A stretch of 36,817 nucleotides of DNA, taken from the NCBI GenBank assembly GCA_017432725.1, contig JAFRIQ010000012.1, positions 1 through 36,817 on the forward strand, in the 5' to 3' direction. The position numbers and the translations under genes were made by a program. The stretch comes from Bacillota bacterium (lineage in GTDB: Bacteria > Bacillota > Clostridia > Peptostreptococcales > Anaerovoracaceae). The number at the start of each line of letters is the position of its first letter. Position 1 is the stretch's first letter. The notes under the pieces are model-generated. The model did no database searches, was not told the DNA's origin, and saw nothing but the letters and a program-made list of their open reading frames with translations. Positions 14,138 through 28,490 of this stretch are shown here, one piece after another.

Positions 14138-15337
14138 ATGGATGTGAAACAGTTAAGCGAAGAGAGGTTCCAGATCTATCAGGACGTTTACTCCGGAAAG
14201 ATCCCGAAAAGGATACCTGTGACTACCGGACCCGCCTTCGAGGCGACCATACAGTATGCCATCACCAAAGGGGTAGTCCCCGCGGGGAAGACAAGAAGAG
14301 ACGTTTACTGGGAGCCGGAATCCTGGTACGACATCCTGGATTTTGCCAACAGCGAGTTTTACGGTGATACGCCCATAAGCACGGGCGCCATACGTCTGCC
14401 CATCCTTTACCAGATCCTCGATGCTAAGAGCATAATGCAGAGCGAATCGGGAGTCATGCAGCATCCGGAAGTCCACTGCCTGGAACCGGAAGAATACGAC
14501 GATTTCATAAAGGACCCCATGACATATATGATAGAGGTCCTGATGCCAAGGCTCTACCCGGCCCTCGATACGACTCCTGGAAGAAGGGCCATGATCTTTG
14601 CCCAGGCCGTGAAAGCCAACGCGGATCATATGGGAATGATAGGTGCCGCCATGGCTAAGATAAACGCCAAGTACGGCTTCCCGAAATCAGCTTCGGGGCG
14701 TTCCACGGCGCCTTTCGATTACATGGCCGATTTCCTAAGATCCTTCTCGAACATAAACAAGGATATGAGGAGATGCCCGGATAAACTTCTCGCCGCCTGC
14801 GATGCCATCGTTCCTCTGATGCTGAGAGAAGGCCTCGGAACGGATCCCGCGGCGAATCCGCCCTATTACAGGATATCGATACCTCTTCATATGGGAAGCT
14901 TCATAAGCAACCAGCAGTTCGAAAAGTTCTGGTATCCTTCAATGAAGAAGGTCATGGACGGTCTTGTTGCCTACGGTCACGGCGTGGACCTTTTCGTGGA
15001 AGATGACTGGATGAGGCATATGGAATATATGAACGAGTTCACGGGTTCCATCAGATACCAGTTCGAAAAGGGAGATCCGGTCTACGTCAAGAAACTGTTC
15101 ACGGAAAGCACTCCCAAGGGTAGCGTCCATACCATAACCGGTTTCTATAAATCGGACAATCTGCGTTACTTAAACGCCGAGCAGTGCATAGACGAGGCGA
15201 AGAAGCTCTTCGACATCGTTGCTGCAGGCGGCGGATACGTATTCAACTTCGACAAGGGCCTGTTCTCACTGGAAGAACCGGTGGCTACGAATCTCAAGGC
15301 TCTGACGGAATGGATCAGGGACAATACGGACTATTAG
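14138..15337 (+). CDS. Uroporphyrinogen decarboxylase-family protein (MtaA/CmuA-like), substrate unknown
   Basis: 399 residues, a (beta/alpha)8 barrel of the UroD superfamily. The pattern (Y/W-rich N-terminus, GAIRLP, MGMIGAAMAK, GSFISNQQFEKFWYPSMKKV, HGVDLFVEDDW and a C-terminal GGGYVFNFDKG) fits the broad UroD/methyltransferase group and not HemE, whose RQAGRY motif is missing. Members of this group in anaerobes transfer methyl groups to or from corrinoid proteins. No corrinoid-binding protein gene lies beside it. Its stop is 13 bases before a 46-residue gene with a strong site, and an unusual ABC transporter follows, so a shared substrate is plausible but inferred. A classical zinc HxC-C set is not evident. 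Confidence 0.82.
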   Translation: MDVKQLSEERFQIYQDVYSGKIPKRIPVTTGPAFEATIQYAITKGVVPAGKTRRDVYWEPESWYDILDFANSEFYGDTPISTGAIRLPILYQILDAKSIMQSESGVMQHPEVHCLEPEEYDDFIKDPMTYMIEVLMPRLYPALDTTPGRRAMIFAQAVKANADHMGMIGAAMAKINAKYGFPKSASGRSTAPFDYMADFLRSFSNINKDMRRCPDKLLAACDAIVPLMLREGLGTDPAANPPYYRISIPLHMGSFISNQQFEKFWYPSMKKVMDGLVAYGHGVDLFVEDDWMRHMEYMNEFTGSIRYQFEKGDPVYVKKLFTESTPKGSVHTITGFYKSDNLRYLNAEQCIDEAKKLFDIVAAGGGYVFNFDKGLFSLEEPVATNLKALTEWIRDNTDY

Positions 15338-15350
15338 GGAGGACATTCAA

Positions 15351-15491
15351 ATGGAATTCAAGACTCAGGATTACGTTAGCTGGGAAGAGTATCTGAAGAA
15401 GCATCCGAACATCGCAGACGTCCCGGGAGCAAAAAGGATACAGAGCTATGAGGACCAGGTATTCTCCCTGGTCATGAGACTGTTCAGATAA
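15351..15491 (+). CDS. 46-residue protein cotranscribed with the UroD-like gene
   Basis: ATG 15351 follows GGGAGGA (15338-15344) at a good distance and runs to TAA 15489-15491. The protein is soluble and charged, with aromatic residues (YVSWEEYLKKHPNIADV, SYEDQVFSLVMRLF), no membrane segment and no cysteine. I recognise no family. The strong ribosome binding site and the 13-base gap to the UroD-like gene argue that it is real. It might be a small partner subunit of the UroD-like protein. Confidence 0.72.
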   Translation: MEFKTQDYVSWEEYLKKHPNIADVPGAKRIQSYEDQVFSLVMRLFR

Positions 15492-15512
15492 TACTGAAAA
15501 CCAATGGGGAAG

Positions 15513-15562
15513 CTTGGCGGCTGCATAAATAAAAAAACAGTTGCCAAGAACCCCCGAAGGGG
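15513..15562 (+). other. Two hairpins after the 46-residue gene
   Basis: An 11-bp stem CTTGGCGGCTG/CAGTTGCCAAG (15513-15523, 15538-15548; two G-T pairs) with an A-rich loop, then a short CCCC-GAA-GGGG hairpin (15552-15562). Neither is followed by a T tract, so they are not standard terminators. The second arm of the first overlaps the -35 box of the downstream promoter. They may stabilise the 3' end of the upstream mRNA. Confidence 0.5.
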
Positions 15563-15569
15563 CTATACT
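15541..15569 (+). promoter_or_regulatory. Promoter for the structured leader and ABC transporter
   Basis: TTGCCA (15541-15546) and TATACT (15564-15569) are exactly 17 bp apart. The predicted start near 15576 places the structured RNA at 15601-15716 in the 5' leader of the transporter mRNA, about 230 bases ahead of the ATG. The promoter is predicted by pattern only. Confidence 0.6.
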
Positions 15570-15600
15570 TGCCTTAATTTACAGATAGTGTCAGGCTTCC

Positions 15601-15716
15601 GGCAGGGACCGGGATCGCCGCTTCAGAGGAGTTGATAGTTCCAAAATGAAAAGAAAAACTCAATACTTTAAACCTGAAGCGGGAATGAGGAACTCCGCAG
15701 CAGCTTGGTCGCTGCC
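15601..15716 (+). ncRNA. Structured leader RNA with pseudoknot, class not recognised
   Basis: Three complementary pairs fold together. The outer stem is GGCAGGGACC (15601-15610) with GGTCGCTGCC (15707-15716), 9 of 10 paired. The inner stem is GGAGTT (15628-15633) with AACTCC (15691-15696), extended by TTCC (15639-15642) with GGAA (15682-15685). CGCTTCAG (15619-15626) pairs perfectly with CTGAAGCG (15674-15681), which lies inside the inner loop and so makes a pseudoknot. The rest of the 318-base gap between genes holds a promoter upstream and, at 15717-15795, AT-rich sequence without a clear terminator hairpin. It does not carry the hallmarks I know for lysine, SAM, glycine, T-box, cobalamin or c-di-GMP RNAs. 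It could be a riboswitch for the transported compound, acting on translation or mRNA stability. Confidence 0.6.
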
Positions 15717-15809
15717 ATGTAAAGGTTTTTGTATAGAATATCGTTAATCGGTTGGTAGTTCAGAGCTTTGCGCCTGAGCTATTTTGCGTTTTTATGGAGA
15801 AAGCACAAA

Positions 15810-16916
15810 ATGATCGAACTTCGGCACTTAAGAAAAGAATTCGATGACGTTACGCCCCTCGAGGACGTCAACCTCACGATCAATGACGGCGACGTCATCG
15901 CCGTTATCGGTCCTTCGGGTACCGGTAAGTCCACGCTTCTTCGCTGCATAAACATGCTCACGCCTCCCACTTCCGGAGATATCATCGTGAACGGTCAGAC
16001 CATCACTGACAAGAGCTGCGATATCAACGAAGTGAGAAAAAAGATGGGCATGGTTTTCCAGTCCTTCAACCTTTTCGGACACATGACTGTCATCGAGAAC
16101 ATCATGAATCCGCAGATCACTCTTCTGGGAAAGAGCCGCCAGGATGCCTATGATTACGCCATGGAGCTCCTCCACAAGGTAGGTCTCGGATCCAAGGCTT
16201 TAAGCTATCCCGACGAGCTGTCCGGCGGACAGCAGCAGCGTGTGGCCATAGCCAGGACTTTGGCCATGGACCCCGACATCATACTTTTCGACGAGCCCAC
16301 ATCGGCTCTCGACCCAAGCATGATAGGCGAGGTACAGTCCGTTATCGGAATGCTTGCCAAAACGGGACGCACCATGATGATAGTCACCCACGAGATGGAC
16401 TTCGCAAAAAAGATAGCCACCAGGGTGCTCTTCATGGACGAGGGCGGCATCTACGACGACGGTACGCCCAAACAGATATTCGACAATCCCCAGAAGGAAA
16501 AGACCAAGAGATTCATACACAGGCTCTCGACGCTCCAGTACAGGATCACAGATCCGGAATTCGACTTCGAACCCATAGTAGACGACCTGCAGTCTTACGC
16601 GGAGAAGCTCCTCATAGAGAACTCCCGTATCAGTAAGCTGCAGCTGGCTCTGGAAGGTATGGTCATGAACAACCTTCTCCGCATCTCCGACGAACCGGAG
16701 ATCTACGTGAAGGTCGACTACTCCGAAAAGAAGGACCTCCTTTCCATGGAGATACTCTACAAGGGCGAGCACTTCGATCCGAAGGAATCCGAGAACATAC
16801 TCTTCAAGTCCATACTGGAAGAGCCTACCACATATTATGAGGACGAAGCATCTGGCGATTTCGCCTACGGATGCACCAACCGTATCTACTTTGAGTTCAG
16901 ATGGGTGGAGGAGTAA
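15810..16916 (+). CDS. Polar amino acid-type ABC ATPase with GHKL-like C-terminal domain
   Basis: 368 residues. Residues 1-245 are a GlnQ/HisP-type ATPase, with Walker A GPSGTGKST (34-42), Q-loop in MVFQSFNLFGHMTV (81-94), signature LSGGQQQR (137-144), Walker B IILFDEPTSALDP (157-169) and H-loop VTHEMDF. An added domain, about 250-368, has LQLALEGMVMNNLL (278-290) and a later YKGEHFDP (317-324). It resembles the N-box and G1 region of RsbW-type GHKL ATPases in degenerate form. I know of no standard PAAT ATPase with this. ATG 15810 is preceded by GGAGAAAG; an in-frame TTG at 15768 has no such site and is rejected. The fused receptor-permease gene follows after 4 bases. Confidence 0.93.
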   Translation: MIELRHLRKEFDDVTPLEDVNLTINDGDVIAVIGPSGTGKSTLLRCINMLTPPTSGDIIVNGQTITDKSCDINEVRKKMGMVFQSFNLFGHMTVIENIMNPQITLLGKSRQDAYDYAMELLHKVGLGSKALSYPDELSGGQQQRVAIARTLAMDPDIILFDEPTSALDPSMIGEVQSVIGMLAKTGRTMMIVTHEMDFAKKIATRVLFMDEGGIYDDGTPKQIFDNPQKEKTKRFIHRLSTLQYRITDPEFDFEPIVDDLQSYAEKLLIENSRISKLQLALEGMVMNNLLRISDEPEIYVKVDYSEKKDLLSMEILYKGEHFDPKESENILFKSILEEPTTYYEDEASGDFAYGCTNRIYFEFRWVEE

Positions 16917-16920
16917 GGAA

Positions 16921-19212
16921 ATGAAAAACACTAAAAGATTTACATGTTTCGTACTTTCCGTGCTTCTGGTATTCATGGCGGCTCTGCCCGTGTTCGCAGC
17001 GGGAGATACGACGACCATAGGAGCTTCCGACCCCTCCGGAGCGATCAGGACCATCAAGGATCTGGATGGCAAGAGGATAGGAGTACAGACAGGAGTGCTC
17101 TACGAAGACCTCATCAAGGACGAAATATCCGATGAGGAGTGGCTCTATTACAAGATGCCCAACGACATGATCCCTGCTCTTCAGAGCGGAAGGATCGACG
17201 CCTACCTCATAGAAGAAGTGGGTTACTATGCCCAGAGATACGCCCATCCCGAGCTTCGCGTAATGGAAGAAAAAGCGGGATACTGCGACTTTGCCGTAAT
17301 AGTAGGCAACAACGCCAAGCAGCCCGTGCTCTTTGCCCAGATGCAGGAATTCATCAAAAAAGGCAAGGAAAGCGGCTGGCTGGATCAGCTTTACGATTAC
17401 TGGGTAAAGAACTGGGATCCCAACACCTGCCATATAGAGAACATCCCCGAGACAACGGGCGAGAACGGTTCCGTCATCATAGCCATCGAGGGCGGATACG
17501 AACCCTTCTCCTTCGAGAGCAACGGGCAGTTCTCAGGTTACGACGTGGAATTCATGATGAACTTCTGCGCCGAATACGGGTACAAATGGGATTTCCAGGC
17601 CATGGAGTTCGACTCCATAGCAGTTGGCGCCATAGCGGGCAAATACGATTTCGGAATGAACATCGTGGTCGATGAGGAAAGAGCCGAGAACTCCGTCCTC
17701 ACAGACCCCTACTACAGATGCGACATAGTATTCGTTCTTCCCGAGGAAAAGGGAAGCAGCTCTTCCGGTGAGATCGCCACTATAAAGGATCTTGACGGAA
17801 AGAGGATAGGCGTGCAGACGGGAGTCCTTTACGAGGACCTCATCAAGGATACCATAGAAGGCGAGACCTGGCTCTATTACAAGATGCCCAACGATATGAT
17901 CCCTGCTCTTCAGAGCGGAAGGATCGACGCCTACCTCATAGAGGAAGTCGGCTACTATGCCCAGAGATACGCCCATCCCGAGCTCAGAGTCATGGACGAG
18001 AAGGCGGGATACTGCGACTTTGCCGTAATAGTCGGAAACAACGAGAAACAGGAAGTACTCTTCGATCAGATGCAGGAGTTCATAAGGAACCGCAAAGCCG
18101 ACGGCTGGCTCGACGATCTTTACGATTACTGGGTAAAGAACTGGGATCCCAACACCTGCTACATAGAGACCGTGCCTGAGACTTCCGGTGAGAACGGTTC
18201 CGTCGTCATAGCCATCGAGGGCGGATACGAACCCTTCTCCTTCGAAAGCAACGGAGAGTTCTCCGGCTACGACGTGGAGTTCATGATGAACTTCTGCGCC
18301 GAGTACGGATACAAGTGGGACTTCCAGGCCATGGAGTTCGACTCCATCGCAGTGGGTGCCATAGCGGGCAAATACGACTTCGGAATGAATATCGTAGTCG
18401 ACGAGGAAAGAGCCGAGAACTCCGTTCTTTCAGATCCCTATTACAGATGCGACATAGTATTCGTACTGTCCGACAAGACTGAGACCGAGGGCGGTTTCTT
18501 CGCAAGGATAGCCAAGAACTTCAACGACACCTTTATCAAGGATGCCCGCTGGAGACTCTTCCTTGAAGGTATAGGAACGACTATGCTCATCACGGTGCTT
18601 TCCATAATCATAGGCACGGTCCTGGGCTTCGGCATCTACATGGCCTGCCGTCACGGCAACAAGATAGCCAACGGCATCACCAACGTGTTCAACTGGTTCA
18701 TAGAAGGCGTTCCTACGGTAGTGTTCCTGATGCTCCTTGCCTTCGTCGTATTCAGCAAGAGCAACATGAACGTCACCTGGGTATCCATCATAGGTTTCTC
18801 CCTCATATTCGCGTGCCAGATGTACGACATGCTCTGCGTGGGCTGCAACGCCATACCCAGAGGCCAGACAGAAGCTTCGAGAGCTCTCGGATACAGCGAC
18901 AGGCAGTGCTTCTTCAAGATCATACTGCCCCAGGCTGCAAGGCACTTCATGCCCATATACAAGAACGACGTCGTATCCCTTATCAAGGAAACGGCCATAG
19001 TCGGATACATAGCCGTAAGAGATCTGACCAAAGCGGCAGACCTGGTAAGGTCCAGAACATATACGGTCTTCTTCGCGCTTATAACGGTGACCATAATCTA
19101 CTTCCTGCTGGAAGGCATACTCACCGGTATAGTGAAGAGAGTACAGCTCAAGGTAGAGCCTGAGCACAGGACCAAGGAAGAGATACTAAAAGGTATAGTC
19201 GAAAGCGAATAA
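16921..19212 (+). CDS. Fused duplicated substrate-binding protein and ABC permease
   Basis: 763 residues. A signal peptide (1 to about 27, ending VFAAGD) leads to a 243-residue unit present twice (44 to about 274, 287 to about 517), with nearly identical protein and strongly similar DNA. Each unit has lobe II first (IKDLDGKRIGVQTG, ALQSGRIDAYLIEEV) and lobe I second (IAIEGGYEPFSFESNG, SGYDVEF, DPYYRCDIVFVL). A canonical receptor is I-II, so only the middle lobes form one in order. Residues about 530-763 are a HisM/GlnP-type permease, with TM helices, an EAA loop (EASRALGYSDRQ...ILPQAARHF) and VSLIKETAIVGYIAV. ATG 16921 follows GGAGGA. Together with the ATPase it makes an importer for a polar amino acid-like compound; the ligand is unknown. 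Confidence 0.93.
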   Translation: MKNTKRFTCFVLSVLLVFMAALPVFAAGDTTTIGASDPSGAIRTIKDLDGKRIGVQTGVLYEDLIKDEISDEEWLYYKMPNDMIPALQSGRIDAYLIEEVGYYAQRYAHPELRVMEEKAGYCDFAVIVGNNAKQPVLFAQMQEFIKKGKESGWLDQLYDYWVKNWDPNTCHIENIPETTGENGSVIIAIEGGYEPFSFESNGQFSGYDVEFMMNFCAEYGYKWDFQAMEFDSIAVGAIAGKYDFGMNIVVDEERAENSVLTDPYYRCDIVFVLPEEKGSSSSGEIATIKDLDGKRIGVQTGVLYEDLIKDTIEGETWLYYKMPNDMIPALQSGRIDAYLIEEVGYYAQRYAHPELRVMDEKAGYCDFAVIVGNNEKQEVLFDQMQEFIRNRKADGWLDDLYDYWVKNWDPNTCYIETVPETSGENGSVVIAIEGGYEPFSFESNGEFSGYDVEFMMNFCAEYGYKWDFQAMEFDSIAVGAIAGKYDFGMNIVVDEERAENSVLSDPYYRCDIVFVLSDKTETEGGFFARIAKNFNDTFIKDARWRLFLEGIGTTMLITVLSIIIGTVLGFGIYMACRHGNKIANGITNVFNWFIEGVPTVVFLMLLAFVVFSKSNMNVTWVSIIGFSLIFACQMYDMLCVGCNAIPRGQTEASRALGYSDRQCFFKIILPQAARHFMPIYKNDVVSLIKETAIVGYIAVRDLTKAADLVRSRTYTVFFALITVTIIYFLLEGILTGIVKRVQLKVEPEHRTKEEILKGIVESE

Positions 19213-28286: not shown

Positions 28287-28315
28287 TTGACCAAGGTATA
28301 TGCAGCATATATAAT
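28287..28315 (+). promoter_or_regulatory. Promoter of the B12-controlled operon
   Basis: TTGACC (28287-28292) and TATAAT (28310-28315) are 17 bp apart, a strong sigma-A promoter. The spacer holds the inverted repeat TATATGC-A-GCATATA (28297-28311), which overlaps the start of the -10 box and could bind a repressor. Transcription would begin near 28322, at the 5' end of the riboswitch. Confidence 0.8.
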
Positions 28316-28324
28316 AAAGTACGG

Positions 28325-28490
28325 ATTTCAGTGCCGTGCAAACGGGTGAAAGGGAATCGGGTGTAAGTCCCGAGCGATCCGGTCACTGTGAGCAGGGAGC
28401 GAGCCGCGGATACCATTGTGCGTATGCATGAGAAGGTGCGGCAAGCGACGATCTGTCAGCCAGGAAACCTGCTGAGATCTAAGGTAAGAT
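28325..28490 (+). ncRNA. Cobalamin (B12) riboswitch
   Basis: The aptamer shows the expected conserved segments in order: GTGAAAGGGAATCGGGTG (28346-28363), TCCGGTCACTGTGAGCAGGG and the B12 box AGCCAGGAAACCTGC (28458-28472). When adenosyl- or methylcobalamin binds, such RNAs turn off the downstream mRNA. The region 28490-28563 contains CGGAAACA/TGTTTCCG (a hairpin, near 28517-28558), probably the antiterminator arm of the expression platform. Downstream genes for surface proteins, a BtuFCD-type importer and cobalamin synthesis all match the ligand. Confidence 0.95.

Follow-up and report, generated by a model that had tools for sequence, protein, structure and literature searches.

A predicted regulatory leader of an amino-acid importer operon belongs to an RNA family without a match in Rfam

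T-box leaders are amino-acid related leaders that, like the leader described here, carry a terminator. Other comparable systems combine a structured leader RNA with a short upstream open reading frame (uORF), a terminator, or both. As described in excerpts of PMC11260477, expression of the gene downstream of the Mycobacterium tuberculosis ppe2 B12 riboswitch needs a translated uORF. The ilvB-II motif was at first considered a riboswitch candidate (PMC11109978, in excerpt), and its uORF in Corynebacterium has since been assigned to uORF attenuation (PMC10272879, in excerpt). The excerpt of PMC11109978 also presents the trpB motif (SRC-39-1) of Firmicutes, which lies mostly before an uncharacterised amino-acid ABC transporter and has a terminator.

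In this study we analysed a leader located in a stretch of 36,817 nucleotides of a Bacillota genome (contig JAFRIQ010000012.1), hereafter called the window. A sequence-only reading of the window had proposed a riboswitch candidate built around a pseudoknot. From the comparison with related loci we conclude that the stretch is a genuine regulatory RNA leader before an amino-acid importer, and a reduced member of a family that occurs in related gut bacteria and is unmatched in Rfam 15. The part of the riboswitch proposal that stands is that the operon of this importer has a cis-regulatory leader and that this leader is conserved; what falls is the pseudoknot, which is specific to the window, and the 5′ domain of the family is missing there as well. 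The features of the locus are collected in Table 1.

Table 1. Features of the leader and of the importer operon, in window coordinates.
Feature	Position	Strand	Remarks
Sigma-70 type promoter, TTGCCA-17-TATACT	15541..15569	+	match 10/12
Outer stem and 9-bp inner stem	15601..15716	+	pair probabilities 0.85 and 0.96-1.0; inner stem window-specific
H7, small hairpin GGAGYUGAUARUUCC	15628..15642	+	96.9% of cells paired, 16 sequences
Short open frame, 33 codons, MKRKTQYFKPEAGMRNSAAAWSLPCKGFCIEYR, conserved ATG	15646..15747	+	ATG in 28/28 leaders
H8, hairpin GCGGG-AAUGAGGAAC-UCCGC inside the short frame	15679..15698	+	CCGGG/CCCGG exchange in L026, L028
Terminator-like hairpin UAGUUCAG/CUGAGCUA, then UUUUGCGUUUUU	15756..15793	+	read from sequence
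ABC transporter ATPase, GlnQ/TcyN/HisP type, with C-terminal extension	15810..16916	+	
Fused substrate-binding and permease protein, polar amino-acid importer	16921..19212	+	

A search with the fused binding-permease protein returned 23 loci, 21 of them with an ATPase start and upstream sequence. Fourteen of these 21, plus L004 from a relative's genome, carry a block common with the window, consisting of GGAGYTGATARTTCY, ATG and GCGGGNATGAGGAANYCCGC or close variants; the remaining seven (L029, L033, L035, L038-L041) have no such block and no match to a covariance model (R1) built from 16 sequences. R1 finds one copy in the window's genome. Of 349 family genomes, 32 have a match at E up to 0.01, a count that includes two weak matches (G181 and G268, E about 0.003). 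L073 and L075, also among the matches, were discarded as false positives. When 393 genomes were drawn from the order, 10 matched R1, all in the window's family. The 44 matches in the fetched loci, less 14 identical second copies drawn from another collection and two false ones, amount to 28 distinct leaders, window included, all within one bacterial family; the same ABC importer ATPase follows 27 of them, and in the other (L062) the contig ends at a start codon. Against the 4227 models of Rfam 15, at the gathering threshold, window positions 15480-15840 reached no family and 17 related loci, four full forms among them, gave no match, while the full form L066 scanned at E up to 10 gave one chance snoRNA match only; neither T-box nor Cobalamin was matched by the leaders scanned. 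The earlier statement that the leader lacks the signature elements of common classes agrees with the Rfam result. A DNA search of phage records returned no match.

In what we call the full form, a 5′ domain precedes the block common to all members. This domain is present in 12 leaders, and in a thirteenth copy found later, and the RNA is about 350 nt long up to the gene, with the helices in the order H1, H2, H4, H5, H6, followed by H7, the ATG of the short frame, H8, H9 and the terminator. An alignment of the 12 leaders (A3) supports H4 (GAGAG/CUCUC), H5 (CAGG-GCCGC/GGCGGC-CCUG), H6 (GGU-CCCGC/GCGGG-ACC), H7, H8 and H9. The proportion of cells paired is 91.6%, vs 85.5% in shuffles and at most 47.7% in slid versions, a figure that leans towards the structure because the latter was drawn from the same 12 sequences. 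Both sides have changed in 16 of the 51 pairs (18 with the thirteenth copy), and the covariation score of 0.213, vs 0.100 in shuffles, is equalled by 0 of 500 shuffles and is almost three times as high as in the best slid version. The compensatory changes for which the sequence-only reading had called are thus present in several helices of the full-length relatives, and not in the helices that it described. A closing helix, ACCAA/UUGGU, is paired in only 62-66% of cells. Many full leaders (L054, L070 and others) begin with AUUUUGGA. This start might form a helix with UCCAAA or CCAAA in place of the weak closing one, so that the RNA may be able to switch from one pairing to the other.

The arms of H1 change completely between leaders (GGUGCCU/AGGCAUC in L045, CAUAUUA/UAAUGUG in L069, AUGCAGAA/UUCUGCAU in L067) around a loop that holds ACACA; those of H9 are equally variable, around a loop that holds UGUGU. 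Fourteen leaders (11 full ones plus L028, L042 and L062) have both ACACA in the 5′ part and TGTGT in the H9 region, and the other 14 have neither, a co-occurrence with a Fisher p of 5e-8 if kinship is ignored. L072, in which H8 and H9 are lost, is without ACACA too, and in the thirteenth copy AGCAC faces GUGCU, an exchange of one A-U for G-C; the pairs of this core otherwise rarely vary. Taken together, the sequences indicate that the H1 and H9 loops pair with each other in the full form. Beyond the constant core the pairing, examined leader by leader, is at the level of chance (972 of 5000 shuffled partners as good). A conserved, aptamer-like structure with covariation, of the kind expected from a riboswitch, is therefore found in the full form and not in the window. 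A model of the 5′ domain (R2) matches in 15 of 345 family genomes. It has no match in the window's genome, in any of the 11 genomes of the window's genus, or in 391 genomes from the class, the latter being a draw without a positive control.

H7 and H8 belong to the part that the window retains. Considered together they are paired in 96.5% of cells over 16 sequences, with two pairs changed on both sides; the proportion of cells paired and the covariation score exceed those of shuffles and of all slid versions, some of the latter being equal in the number of pairs changed on both sides. H7 and the H8 loop AUGAGGAA are also more conserved in sequence than pairing demands. H8 is absent from L071, L072 and L074. 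In the window it shares bases with a 9-bp stem, so that the two are mutually exclusive: the predicted fold assigns the stem nearly all of the pair probability and H8 none (0), and constraining the fold to H8 costs 7 kcal/mol. Since the predicted fold prefers the 9-bp stem, H8 could form there only with the help of translation or some other factor, and to this extent the prediction speaks against taking H8 at face value in the window.

That 9-bp stem is part of the structure first proposed for the window. The good promoter with a 17-bp spacer was correctly recognised, and a promoter match of at least 9/12 lies upstream of 21 of the 28 leaders, window among them; the window transcript would be expected to start at about 15576. 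The outer stem is likewise there, with 9 of 10 pairs between 15601-15610 and 15707-15716 as read from the sequence. Inside it, a perfect 9-bp stem (15618-15626 with 15674-15682), which we take to be what had been reported as an 8-bp pairing, is crossed by a 6-bp stem (15628-15633 with 15691-15696). These nested and crossing stems exist in the window, but the pseudoknot that they form is not conserved: the 9-bp stem has 9/9 pairs in the window and 1-5/9 in each of the 27 other leaders, and the crossing helix is paired in 70.8% of cells over 16 sequences vs 72.0% in shuffles, on which grounds the crossing helices were rejected as a conserved core. In several relatives the distance from promoter to H7 is 15-31 bases, too few for the 5′ arm of the outer stem at that distance. 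Of 500 shuffles of the 116 bases, 29 contain a Watson-Crick stem at least 8 bp long; the folding of 15596-15725 beats shuffles (z = −2.64, 1/200 as good), and that of 15570-15809 does not stand out from them (z = −1.61, 12/200). The pseudoknot riboswitch as first described is thus not supported by the comparison, and its pseudoknot is specific to the sequence of the window. Nor does the element end 94 bases before the gene, as had been stated; that first reading had missed the two conserved hairpins H7 and H8 as well as the open frame and the hairpin resembling a terminator. As a separate observation, made by eye, the promoter spacers of the window (15547-15563) and of L024-L026, L034, L036 and L039-L044 are rich in C, often with ACCCCC, at similar positions; this group includes the leaderless operons L039-L041. 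The C-rich stretch could be an operator.

In 28/28 leaders the ATG of the short frame occupies a constant position, 22 or 23 bases from the start of the core. The only Shine-Dalgarno-like sequence that we noticed before it is the GGAG in H7, at a poor spacing of 14 nt; this GGAG would be hidden once H7 forms, and H7 may in this way gate translation. Of the 22 leaders with a located terminator, 20 keep the frame open as far as that terminator (2 and 3 leaders for the other two frames), and in 21 of 26 leaders the frame ends somewhere from 19 nt upstream to 8 nt downstream of the ATPase start. A conserved start and an open frame ahead of the main gene, two marks of a leader-peptide attenuator, are thus present. 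The window's frame already ends at 15747, which leaves 62 bases to the gene and 8 to the terminator stem, and a ribosome would there have to act from the stop codon; it also stops before the terminator in L026, L027, L071 and the thirteenth copy. Length differences within the frame (alignment A1) are of three bases each (+3 in the window, −3 in L027). Amino-acid similarity is 1.92 in the frame vs 1.52 and 1.62 in the other two, but mismatch rates at the three codon positions are nearly equal (0.431, 0.433, 0.480), and for this reason the peptide is not clearly selected; what is kept seems to be openness and RNA structure more than the peptide. An arrest peptide was considered on account of GMRNP in the short frame, which we take to resemble the SecM motif, and was dropped because its Pro and Arg are not constant (for example in L030, L034 and L045).

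By the rule of our script, 26 of 27 leaders have a hairpin with a T tract behind it ahead of the gene, vs 79 of 540 shuffles; two of seven leaderless relatives (L029 and L038) have one too. The window is the sole leader to fail the rule: its stem has three G-C pairs only. In the predicted fold the window's terminator has a pair probability of 0.09. A putative terminator in the leader, a further mark of a leader-peptide attenuator, is therefore found across the family, the window's stem being weaker. We looked in the 28 leaders for a conserved RNA antiterminator, in the parts before H7 and from H7 on, and found none. Pairing of the part before H7 with the 3′ arm of the terminator is not above that of shuffles (mean z 0.07); the part from H7 to the terminator shows a weak lean (mean z −0.30, 20/28 below zero), with one leader of 28 better than 95 of 100 shuffles. 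A pairing of the window's own 5′ end with the terminator (z = −1.53, 14/200 shuffles as good) was set aside as not common to the relatives. As the frame stays open through the terminator and no RNA antiterminator stands out, that role may well fall to the ribosome.

The importer is similar to systems for Gln, cystine, His and Arg; among the best 25 NCBIfam models shown for each importer protein, none reaches its cut-off. In the ATPase, the approximately 118 residues past the ABC domain (16560-16916) have no Pfam match and could be a regulatory domain. The binding part of the fused protein seems to be ordered C-half, N-half, C-half, N-half before the permease: its residues 186-406 align as one normal SBP_bac_3 domain, flanked by half-domains at both ends. 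Upstream of the promoter are a gene for a URO-D family protein (14138-15337) and, between that gene and the promoter, a 46-residue open frame (15351-15491) without a Pfam match. Proteins of this kind are often linked to corrinoid methyl transfer. The only Rfam match in the window is a Cobalamin riboswitch at 28312-28490 (100.5 bits), 12 kb from the leader.

A clue to the signal comes from genome G300, where the thirteenth full copy, the second leader of this kind in that genome (L092:6092-6426, minus strand; operon region L092:1941-6426), precedes genes for an alanine racemase (TIGR00492, 293 bits vs a cut-off of 168), a protein resembling Orn/Lys/Arg decarboxylases, and a carrier of the AGCS (sodium:alanine symporter) family (439 bits vs 272.65). 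Ala is also in excess among the short-frame codons, as are Ser and Cys (figures below). Because this copy stands before racemase and Na+:alanine symporter genes, alanine is our best guess for the signal, on the thin evidence of one genome.

The copy in the window is one of several reduced forms, made of promoter, H7, short frame, H8 and terminator, without the 5′ domain. The loop-loop contact is kept without the inner domain in L028, L042 and L062; H6 is kept without the contact in L026 and L057; and H7, frame and terminator are what persists, with or without H8, in the window and its genus, L027, L043, L071 and L074. On a tree of the ATPase (31 rows) the full forms appear on several branches, the short form needs at least five changes, and leaderless operons are interspersed among leader-bearing ones; the window itself sits on a long branch, of uncertain position. 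The simplest reading of these sequences would be an ancestral full form that was repeatedly worn down. The forms thus make up a graded series: at one end stand RNAs of about 350 nt in which two loops pair, at the other a minimal set of hairpin, short frame and terminator. The series illustrates how a regulatory RNA can be eroded while its output part survives.

How might such a leader work? The importer operon leader, 15576-15809, is a reduced member of the family, and we think it somewhat probable that it acts by attenuation through translation of the short frame and the terminator. RNA polymerase would stop at the terminator unless a ribosome that has begun translating the short frame trails it closely enough to prevent the terminator from folding; most members have a frame that crosses the terminator and stops at the importer start. 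In the full members the 5′ domain, by way of H7 and the loop-loop contact, would control translation of the short frame according to a signal, possibly alanine or an amino acid related to it. The window copy, lacking the 5′ domain, would be nearly constitutive or respond to translation alone. An ordinary metabolite riboswitch, in which the RNA binds the imported compound and controls the terminator while the short frame is incidental, would account for the high conservation, the covarying helices and the loop-loop pairing of the full form's 5′ domain, and for the leader's place before importer and racemase/symporter operons alike. Nevertheless we regard it as unlikely, since no strong common pairing competes with the terminator, the frame stays open through a diverged stretch, and the window is without the 5′ domain, which would be the obvious ligand-binding part. 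Given the short frame and the terminator, direct metabolite binding is no likelier than ribosome-dependent attenuation in the window copy. The two ideas could be combined, the full form being a new class of alanine (L or D) riboswitch that acts through a short translated frame: an aptamer with a loop-loop contact would permit or block translation of the frame, the ribosome would disarm the terminator inside it, and the window would hold the output half after loss of the sensor. We offer this more specific proposal as quite doubtful.

The composition of the frame suggests instead that scarcity of charged tRNA-Ala could stall the ribosome at Ala codons in H8/H9 and so affect the terminator. Ala makes up 165 of 1242 short-frame codons (13.3%, 26 leaders) vs 8.2% in 137 crude reference ORFs, and the frame before alr is Ala-rich (MKNTYAARLADLRNSASAAGGAAAAGSSVDVPRTS, translated by eye). 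Yet Ala codons 11, 17 and 18 are part of the H8 block; after codon 18, beyond H8, the excess is modest (88/765, p = 0.001) and extends to Ser and Cys; the window frame has 4 Ala in 32; and a conserved antiterminator was not found, all of which makes this kind of attenuation very unlikely. That H7 and the H8 loop are conserved beyond the needs of pairing could also reflect a protein that binds the leader (for example at one of these two sites) and regulates it, but a candidate protein is not known and we consider the idea highly improbable. We judge equally improbable the view that the window copy is a relic without regulatory effect, the promoter alone driving the operon: the operons L039-L041, with a promoter beside the gene and no leader by R1, and the loss of the 5′ domain together with the weak terminator in the window would fit it, whereas the retention of H7, H8, the ATG and the terminator-like hairpin speaks the other way.

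Among the open-access papers listed on leader peptides, orphan riboswitches and alanine sensing we did not find the present leader described. It adds a leader-RNA family without a match in Rfam 15, the interest of which lies mostly in the full form: if the 5′ domain senses alanine, it would do so for an amino acid without a described riboswitch, as far as that limited literature goes, and would couple alanine sensing to translation in an unusual way. From T-box leaders it differs in giving no T-box match in the Rfam scans. With the ppe2 B12 riboswitch, as its excerpt describes it, it has in common a structured leader, a loop-loop contact, premature termination in the leader and a translated short frame overlapping the start of the main gene (a predicted frame in our case); unlike that system, it has no Cobalamin match, and in most members the terminator-like hairpin lies inside the frame. 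The ilvB-II motif, going by the excerpts cited, followed a similar course, from riboswitch candidate to uORF attenuation with a terminator hairpin; it has an antiterminator and a codon-enriched peptide, whereas no conserved antiterminator was found here and the present full form has a large extra 5′ domain. The trpB motif is, like ours, a Firmicutes leader with a terminator before an amino-acid ABC transporter; in the excerpt it has >900 members in Firmicutes and Fusobacteria and an antiterminator region in P1, while the present leader was found in a single family. Seen against these systems, the architecture of the family looks like a new combination of known parts.
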